Positions 19,493 through 20,489 of a stretch of DNA of 52,653 nucleotides are shown in pieces; the stretch's first letter is position 1; every line of letters starts with the position of its first letter. The notes below the pieces were generated by a model. The model searched no databases. It was not told the DNA's origin and was given only the letters and a program-made list of their open reading frames with translations. The translations under genes were made by a program, and so were the position numbers. This stretch comes from an uncultured Anaerolineaceae bacterium (lineage in GTDB: Bacteria; Chloroflexota; Anaerolineae; Anaerolineales; Anaerolineaceae): NCBI GenBank assembly GCA_937863605.1, contig CALMGN010000179.1, forward strand, positions 1-52,653, read 5' to 3'.

Positions 19493-20395
19493 TCAGCTTT
19501 GCAGCGCAGACAGCTGGCGCAGTTTCATGCCGATTTCACGCCACTGGATTTTGGATATTCCCAATTTCTGGCGAATTTGTTCGTGCTCCATATCGGATTG
19601 CCAGTCCCGCAAGACACTGGTCCAGCGGCACATGTCGAAGGAGAGGTGTTTTTCGATACCAGCGTCTTCGCCCAGGTCCTCCAACAGGTATTCAAGCCGG
19701 CGCGGTGACCAGGGGAATATCACATCCTTGGGTTGGTATTGAGTCAGGTATTCCTGATAGCTCTCCACCCATTCGGCGGGCAGTTCAATCTTGCGTTCTT
19801 TGTAGCGGTTGCTCGGACTGGCGTAGCGCACGAAGAGAATGGGTCCGCCTGGAGCCTCCAAGTCGATGTGGTTAATGTTTACCGCCAGGCATTCCCCTTT
19901 TTTGATCCCGGTCGATAGGAGTAAGGTTAGCAGCGTGTAAGGGCGGGCATCCGGTTTTTTGGCTTTGCGGTACTTCTCAGCTGCAAGAATTACTTTTTCC
20001 TGCTCGTCACGGGTCAACACCGTTGGCAGCGGGCTGATGACGGACTGCTGAATCACTTTTTCGGCAGGGTCCACCATGATTCGCCCGCTTTTATGCAGCC
20101 AGCGGAAAAAGGCTTTGATGGATGTAATGCGGCGCGCCAGACTTTTGGGACTGCAAGGGACGCCGCGCCCGCTTTGCATCCAGGTGAGAAAATTGTTGAG
20201 ATCCTTGGTGGAAACCGTTCCGACGGTTTTATCCGGGGGAAGGAAACTTGCCAGCAACTGCAGGTCGCCAAGGAACGCCTTAACCGTGTAAGGTGACTTT
20301 CCCTGGTCTAGCAGGAACAACTCCCATGACCCGATGGTCGGCAAGAGCGGCGTTTGAGATGTGATGTGAAGGTCGGGAGTAATTTCCTTTGGCAT
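19493..20395 (-). CDS. Tyrosine-recombinase (XerC/D-like) homologue with degenerate active site
   Basis: N-terminal SAM-like core-binding domain and C-terminal phage-integrase fold; catalytic positions substituted (see findings). Confidence 0.8.
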   Translation of the reverse strand: MPKEITPDLHITSQTPLLPTIGSWELFLLDQGKSPYTVKAFLGDLQLLASFLPPDKTVGTVSTKDLNNFLTWMQSGRGVPCSPKSLARRITSIKAFFRWLHKSGRIMVDPAEKVIQQSVISPLPTVLTRDEQEKVILAAEKYRKAKKPDARPYTLLTLLLSTGIKKGECLAVNINHIDLEAPGGPILFVRYASPSNRYKERKIELPAEWVESYQEYLTQYQPKDVIFPWSPRRLEYLLEDLGEDAGIEKHLSFDMCRWTSVLRDWQSDMEHEQIRQKLGISKIQWREIGMKLRQLSALQS

Positions 20396-20450: not shown

Positions 20451-20489
20451 CACATTTCCACGAAAGTCAAACTTTTCGTGGAAATTGTG
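20451..20489. repeat. 12-8-12 perfect inverted repeat (candidate recombinase/operator site)
   Basis: cac-ATTTCCACGAAA-gtcaaact-TTTCGTGGAAAT-tgtg; outer CAC/GTG also pair with one bulge. Confidence 0.85.

Follow-up and report, generated by a model that had tools for sequence, protein, structure and literature searches.

XerC and XerD (TIGR02224 and TIGR02225; PDB 1a0p) and archaeal XerA (5hxy, 4a8e) have the same two-domain architecture and the same length as the protein described here. All 89 members of the family to which this protein belongs match the XerC/XerD models, and XerA and XerD are its best sequence matches in the PDB. Tyrosine recombinases that have been domesticated and are catalytically dead are already known as a kind. 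An earlier case is the XerD-like protein of streptococci (which we take to be NF002685/PRK02436), a chromosomal Xer paralogue said to take no part in dif recombination. The NF002685 model picks up no more than two of the 89 members, the better of them at 2.5e-6, and leaves the protein under study unmatched at 1e-5. In animals, the DUF3504/Crypton proteins represent an ancient tyrosine recombinase domestication in which most of the catalytic tetrad has been lost and the sequence is highly conserved (PMC3212892). These proteins are eukaryotic, transposon-derived and fused to other domains, whereas the protein reported here is bacterial, Xer-type and stand-alone. For the integrase of Tn1549, the inactive catalytic mutant R225K binds DNA and has been used to obtain crystals of uncut DNA complexes (PMC5871717). 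The same Arg I to Lys change, engineered in Tn1549, is natural in the present family, although R225K is a single mutant whereas the family has lost four further catalytic residues. Finally, Bacillus subtilis XerD is cited (in PMC12322038) as a sequence-specific SMC unloader, i.e. in a chromosomal role outside recombination, which shows that a Xer protein can have a role of this kind. That XerD is still an active recombinase, and for the protein studied here a link to SMC is only a suggestion. In the literature searched we found no published description of the Chloroflexota family, here called dead Xer, and the name Chloroflexota does not occur in a survey of tyrosine recombinases.

Domains and catalytic positions

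The window, i.e. the whole stretch of 52,653 nucleotides that was analysed, from an uncultured Anaerolineaceae bacterium, carries on its minus strand (20395..19493) an ORF of 300 amino acids. It runs from an ATG at 20395 to a stop at 19493 in a single clean frame, as the initial annotation had stated in describing it as full length and clean. Pfam detects Phage_int_SAM_1 (PF02899) at residues 27-102 (E 1.4e-9) and Phage_integrase (PF00589) at residues 127-263 (E 7.8e-8). The former marks the N-terminal core-binding (SAM-like) domain (residues 15-102; 20090..20353, minus strand, as are all features of the protein given below), with a near-invariant basic helix that includes K84, R88, R89, T91 and K94. 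The latter marks the fold of the C-terminal 'catalytic' domain (residues 127-300; 19496..20017), for which Foldseek retrieves Cre, lambda Int, XerH and XerA. The NCBIfam models for XerD (TIGR02225) and XerC match the protein at 3.7e-23 (82 bits) and 3.4e-21 (76 bits), respectively, and their cut-offs of 329.6 and about 330 bits are not reached. When the family was compared profile to profile with the canonical XerC/D proteins of the same class, the match had a probability of 99.9% (E 2e-31), and the canonical motifs TGMRVSE, TPHTLRH and LLGHAN were paired with TGIKKGE, SFDMCRW and KLGISK of the family. Taken together, these matches place the homology far above what chance would give.

Residues at the catalytic positions were counted in an alignment of 89 diverse family members. 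The Arg I position (K165; 19901..19903) holds Lys in 87 of the 89 and Arg in the other two. At the His position of the HxxR box (D254..R257; 19625..19636) the counts are D 40, E 30, Q 14, A 4 and N 1, with His in no member, and Arg II (R257), invariant in 89/89, is the sole catalytic position kept. I, L or V occupies the second catalytic His position (the LGH His, Trp in some; I280, 19556..19558) in every member. The Lys of the beta2-beta3 hairpin (GKGxK) is not conserved, the N196 column being variable and the hairpin lacking GKG, in a region where the alignment has a small insertion. In a gap-free alignment the nucleophile Tyr of XerD falls on G289 (19529..19531), a variable column with Tyr in 0 of 89 members. 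The L292 column (19520..19522) holds Leu or Ile in all members outside the sister lineages and Tyr in the 14 that belong to them (EKYRKLA; RRYIRLA in distant members). From the alignment, the column that corresponds to the nucleophile within this family may be that of L292 and not that of G289; members of the window's class have Tyr in neither. Not one of the 89 aligned members was found to be a catalytically complete orthologue (R-K-HxxR-Y).

Much of what the initial annotation had read from the single sequence is borne out: the change of TGLR to TGIK with loss of the first Arg, and the replacement of the HxxR His by Asp with the second Arg kept. It had also taken a change of the following His to Trp as a catalytic loss, but that residue, W258, is not a catalytic one, and the real second His corresponds to I280. 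The proposed change of Tyr to Gly is correct for G289 by gap-free alignment to XerD, but may not concern the family's own column.

Overall, the protein is homologous to XerC/D-type tyrosine recombinases over its full length, but differs from them at five of the six catalytic positions. From XerC/XerD themselves it is set apart by these changes, by a score of about 82 bits against a 330-bit cut-off, and by a clade other than that of the canonical XerC/D proteins of its class. Twelve positions are strictly invariant among the 89 members, and seven of them are Lys or Arg (R88, R89, R151, K166, R201, R232 and R257), which fits a retained grip on DNA; R88 and R89 belong to the core-binding domain. 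A C-terminal motif, RQKLGISKIQWREIxxKLRQL (residues 275-295; 19511..19573), ranks with the best-conserved segments of the sequence.

AlphaFold, given the 89-sequence alignment, predicts an intact two-domain Xer clamp (pLDDT 96.1, pTM 0.87), and the core-binding and catalytic domain folds of XerC/XerD are found alike by Pfam, AlphaFold and Foldseek. Foldseek matches of the model comprise XerA, lambda Int, XerH, Tn1549 Int, integron integrase and Cre, with the best TM-scores (about 0.65-0.70) for DNA-bound XerH, Cre, Tn1549 Int and lambda Int. A fused effector domain was seen neither by Pfam nor in the AlphaFold model. As a side observation, most of chain 14 of PDB 9i5v (401 residues), named RaiA, can be aligned with the Xer family (E 1.5e-13); the chain is either a mislabelled Xer protein or a Xer-RaiA fusion.

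Judging from sequence and model, dead Xer is probably a domesticated, catalytically dead Xer-type recombinase that acts as a non-cleaving DNA-binding protein. Binding to DNA would follow from the fold and the invariant Lys and Arg residues, and the altered catalytic positions suggest that it would not cleave.

Distribution and relation to other Xer recombinases

A search of 60 relatives detected an orthologue, at 41-93% identity and clearly apart from ordinary recombinases, in most genomes of the window's order. Across its class a single-copy orthologue (E 1e-44 or better) is present in about 206 of 249 genomes, and several of the class genomes without a match are incomplete assemblies. Elsewhere in the phylum, families f85, f103, f77 and f101 contain clear members, with E-values of about 1e-47 to 1e-62, and families f105, f94, f127, f111, f121 and f137 contain distant ones. 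Most remaining families have matches at the level of canonical XerD only. The protein is thus kept and tightly conserved over a large branch of Chloroflexota. In maximum-likelihood trees (short searches, midpoint roots) the family lies on one side of a branch with SH-aLRT 98-99, apart from canonical XerC/D and from the other recombinases found in the same genomes, and its internal order largely follows taxonomy; it forms its own clade and is vertically inherited. A recent phage or plasmid origin was rejected, since tblastn against phages and plasmids returned only generic Xer proteins below 30% identity and no close relative, and a scan of viral contigs returned no relative.

Canonical XerC/D is absent from the window's order, where a different, intact resident Xer-type recombinase is found in 41 of 61 genomes. 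This resident Xer (L234, 1447-2466, minus strand; G036:C1:2782594-2783613) is a single, divergent and apparently intact protein, with motifs GLRVHE, IGKGN, HSFRHYFVT and VTQRYAH, and from its sequence it is likely to be the dimer-resolution enzyme. The window's own assembly (92% complete, 299 contigs) yielded no copy of it. The only other PF00589 protein of that genome (G000:C160:2010-3062; L036, 988-2043) has close orthologues, patchily distributed, in 8 or 9 of 61 genomes and is probably a mobile-element integrase.

XerC/D were counted in 81 genomes of the class with a completeness of 95% or more, a set that also takes in the window's own genome at 92%. No canonical XerC/D-level match exists in 23 of them, all of which have dead Xer (23/23), compared with 49 of the 57 genomes that have XerC/D and a known dead Xer status; the difference is suggestive, not strong. 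This distribution rules out a dependence of dead Xer on canonical XerC/D. It also bears on the possibility that dead Xer is an inactive regulatory partner of an active Xer, entering mixed complexes at dif-like sites and controlling synapsis or strand choice in the way XerC and XerD control each other. Both the excess among genomes lacking XerC/D and the presence of an intact resident Xer in an order without them would agree with such a role. However, no single Xer co-occurs with dead Xer: it is present together with XerC and XerD, with the resident Xer only, and in near-complete genomes in which no resident Xer was found (e.g. G002, G016 and G037), and it is therefore not tied to one partner. 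In addition, only about 8-11 residues follow the Tyr position in dead Xer, whereas XerD has 19, and a tail this short makes the usual tail-exchange tetramer somewhat less likely. A regulatory partner is consequently an unlikely explanation, and the 'synapsis protein' offered by the initial annotation has no support of its own, the short tail speaking mildly against it as well. The other part of that suggestion, a domesticated DNA-binding protein, is in our judgement the best reading of the sequence and the model.

Gene context, sister lineages and selection

No constant neighbour was found when a conserved operon partner was sought across classes. The gene lies beside tilS and LCP in the window's order and beside comEC/comEA-like genes in one other lineage, and the context implies no partner. 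In that lineage, f85 (L114, L116, L117, L120 and L121), it adjoins a gene for a zinc-ribbon membrane protein and comEC-like and comEA-like genes on the opposite strand, and a link to DNA uptake is possible there; the window's class does not show this arrangement. Neither scpA nor scpB is part of the gene clusters that recur around dead Xer. A fixed position relative to ori or ter was also sought, but the distances to dnaA follow no pattern, with values between about 0.06 and 0.38 of the genome, some genomes having two dnaA copies. Upstream of dead Xer, in the gap that separates it from the LCP gene, the window has a perfect inverted repeat at 20454-20485, ATTTCCACGAAA, with 12-bp arms and an 8-bp spacer. 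As a dif-like binding site of the family it was rejected, being present only in the three closest genomes, and it could be a terminator or a local operator. No DNA-binding site of the family was found.

These observations weigh on the idea that dead Xer is a recombinase-derived transcription regulator that binds promoters. There are precedents for it, as the domesticated Crypton (DUF3504) proteins of eukaryotes, without most of the R-H-R-Y tetrad, often occur in transcriptional regulators (PMC3212892), and ALOG domains are another recombinase-derived DNA-binding domain (PMC3537659). Nevertheless, dead Xer lacks a fused effector domain, no conserved operator was found upstream of its own gene, and its neighbourhood differs between classes, so that this role seems about as improbable as that of a regulatory partner.

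The sister lineages show a different state of the active site. In families f85, f103, f77 and f101 (L111-L124) and in L125-L132 a C-terminal Tyr is conserved within EKYRKLA, RRYIRLA or ARYRILA, 3-4 residues downstream of the XerD nucleophile position, and the canonical Arg I and both His are missing. The most distant members have the conserved Tyr (RRYIRLA, ARYRILA) and Arg II, with Arg I shifted by one residue and the HxxR His usually replaced by Gln. Since the Tyr is kept in the sister lineages, the simplest reading of these sequences is a stepwise decay of the active site, in which Arg I and both His would have been lost or altered early and the Tyr in the ancestor of the window's class. 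The Tyr-retaining proteins may be decay intermediates or weakly active. One could go further and suppose that dead Xer is itself an active recombinase with an alternative nucleophile and altered catalytic residues, considering that the sister lineages keep the Tyr along with Arg II and that Arg I has been relocated in some integrases (CTnDOT group, PMC8138268). Yet the window's class has no Tyr at or near the nucleophile position, with only L or I in the L292 column, and it lacks the two catalytic His residues as well as the catalytic Lys; we consider such activity very improbable.

Within the genus, pairwise dN/dS of the gene is 0.02-0.07, dS being near or above saturation for more distant pairs. 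Conservation was compared with that of neighbouring genes within the same genome pairs. Against one member of the order, dead Xer has 66% identity and TilS 36%. With a second member, dead Xer reaches 68%, MutL 59%, LCP 46% and TilS 32%, and with another its 61% is slightly under the 65% of MutL. Dead Xer is thus usually slower-evolving than its neighbours TilS and LCP and about as slow as MutL, and its conservation is that of a core gene. The low dN/dS, retention throughout the class, conservation usually above that of the neighbours and a high-confidence fold all support the initial annotation in its view that the ORF is selected rather than decayed. A decaying pseudogene or local mobile-element relic, which the loss of the active site alone would permit, is refuted by the dN/dS, by orthologues inherited vertically throughout order and class, which also exclude a decayed one-strain copy, and by the lack of any phage, plasmid or viral-contig relative above 30% identity.

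Possible function and meaning

The fold, the conserved loss of catalytic residues, purifying selection and the absence of mobility, all found here, are the general marks of a domesticated non-catalytic tyrosine recombinase. As Tn1549 Int R225K is inactive yet binds DNA, and as the same Lys change occurs naturally in dead Xer, a clamp that binds without cutting would be the most economical model. The two-domain clamp would close round a specific DNA site. Its hold on the backbone, at the would-be cut point, would come from the helix of the core-binding domain together with what is kept of the basic pocket, namely the Lys that replaces Arg I and the invariant Arg II. With no nucleophile, no His as general acid/base and no catalytic Lys, neither cleavage nor strand exchange would take place, and the protein would thereby occupy or mark chromosomal sites. 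A similar pattern of conservation would also be compatible with binding of RNA or protein.

For the non-cleaving DNA-binding protein that we favour, a chromosomal housekeeping role is our guess. Its most likely use would be in core chromosome maintenance, e.g. at specific sites where a DNA translocase or an SMC complex is halted or unloaded, or as an architectural factor, and control of one neighbouring gene would be less likely. The gene is widespread and evolves slowly, and neither its neighbours nor its map position are constant, which would fit a general task on the chromosome better than the control of one operon. More specifically, and only tentatively, the phylum-level family might be a core chromosome organiser (an SMC/FtsK unloader or roadblock, or a marker of the termination region) that survived the loss and replacement of the catalytic XerC/D pair. 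Were this so, the DNA-marking role of Xer proteins would be separable from recombination.

Current annotation would call the dead Xer proteins recombinases or integrases, a label that is probably wrong. Most of what is known of non-catalytic tyrosine recombinases concerns eukaryotes and their domesticated transposons. Here one is found in bacteria, in the greater part of a class, conserved to much the same degree as MutL and retained where canonical XerC/D is absent. If dead Xer does bind chromosomal sites, it would represent a natural separation of Xer DNA-marking from recombination and a testable core function in the poorly studied Chloroflexota.
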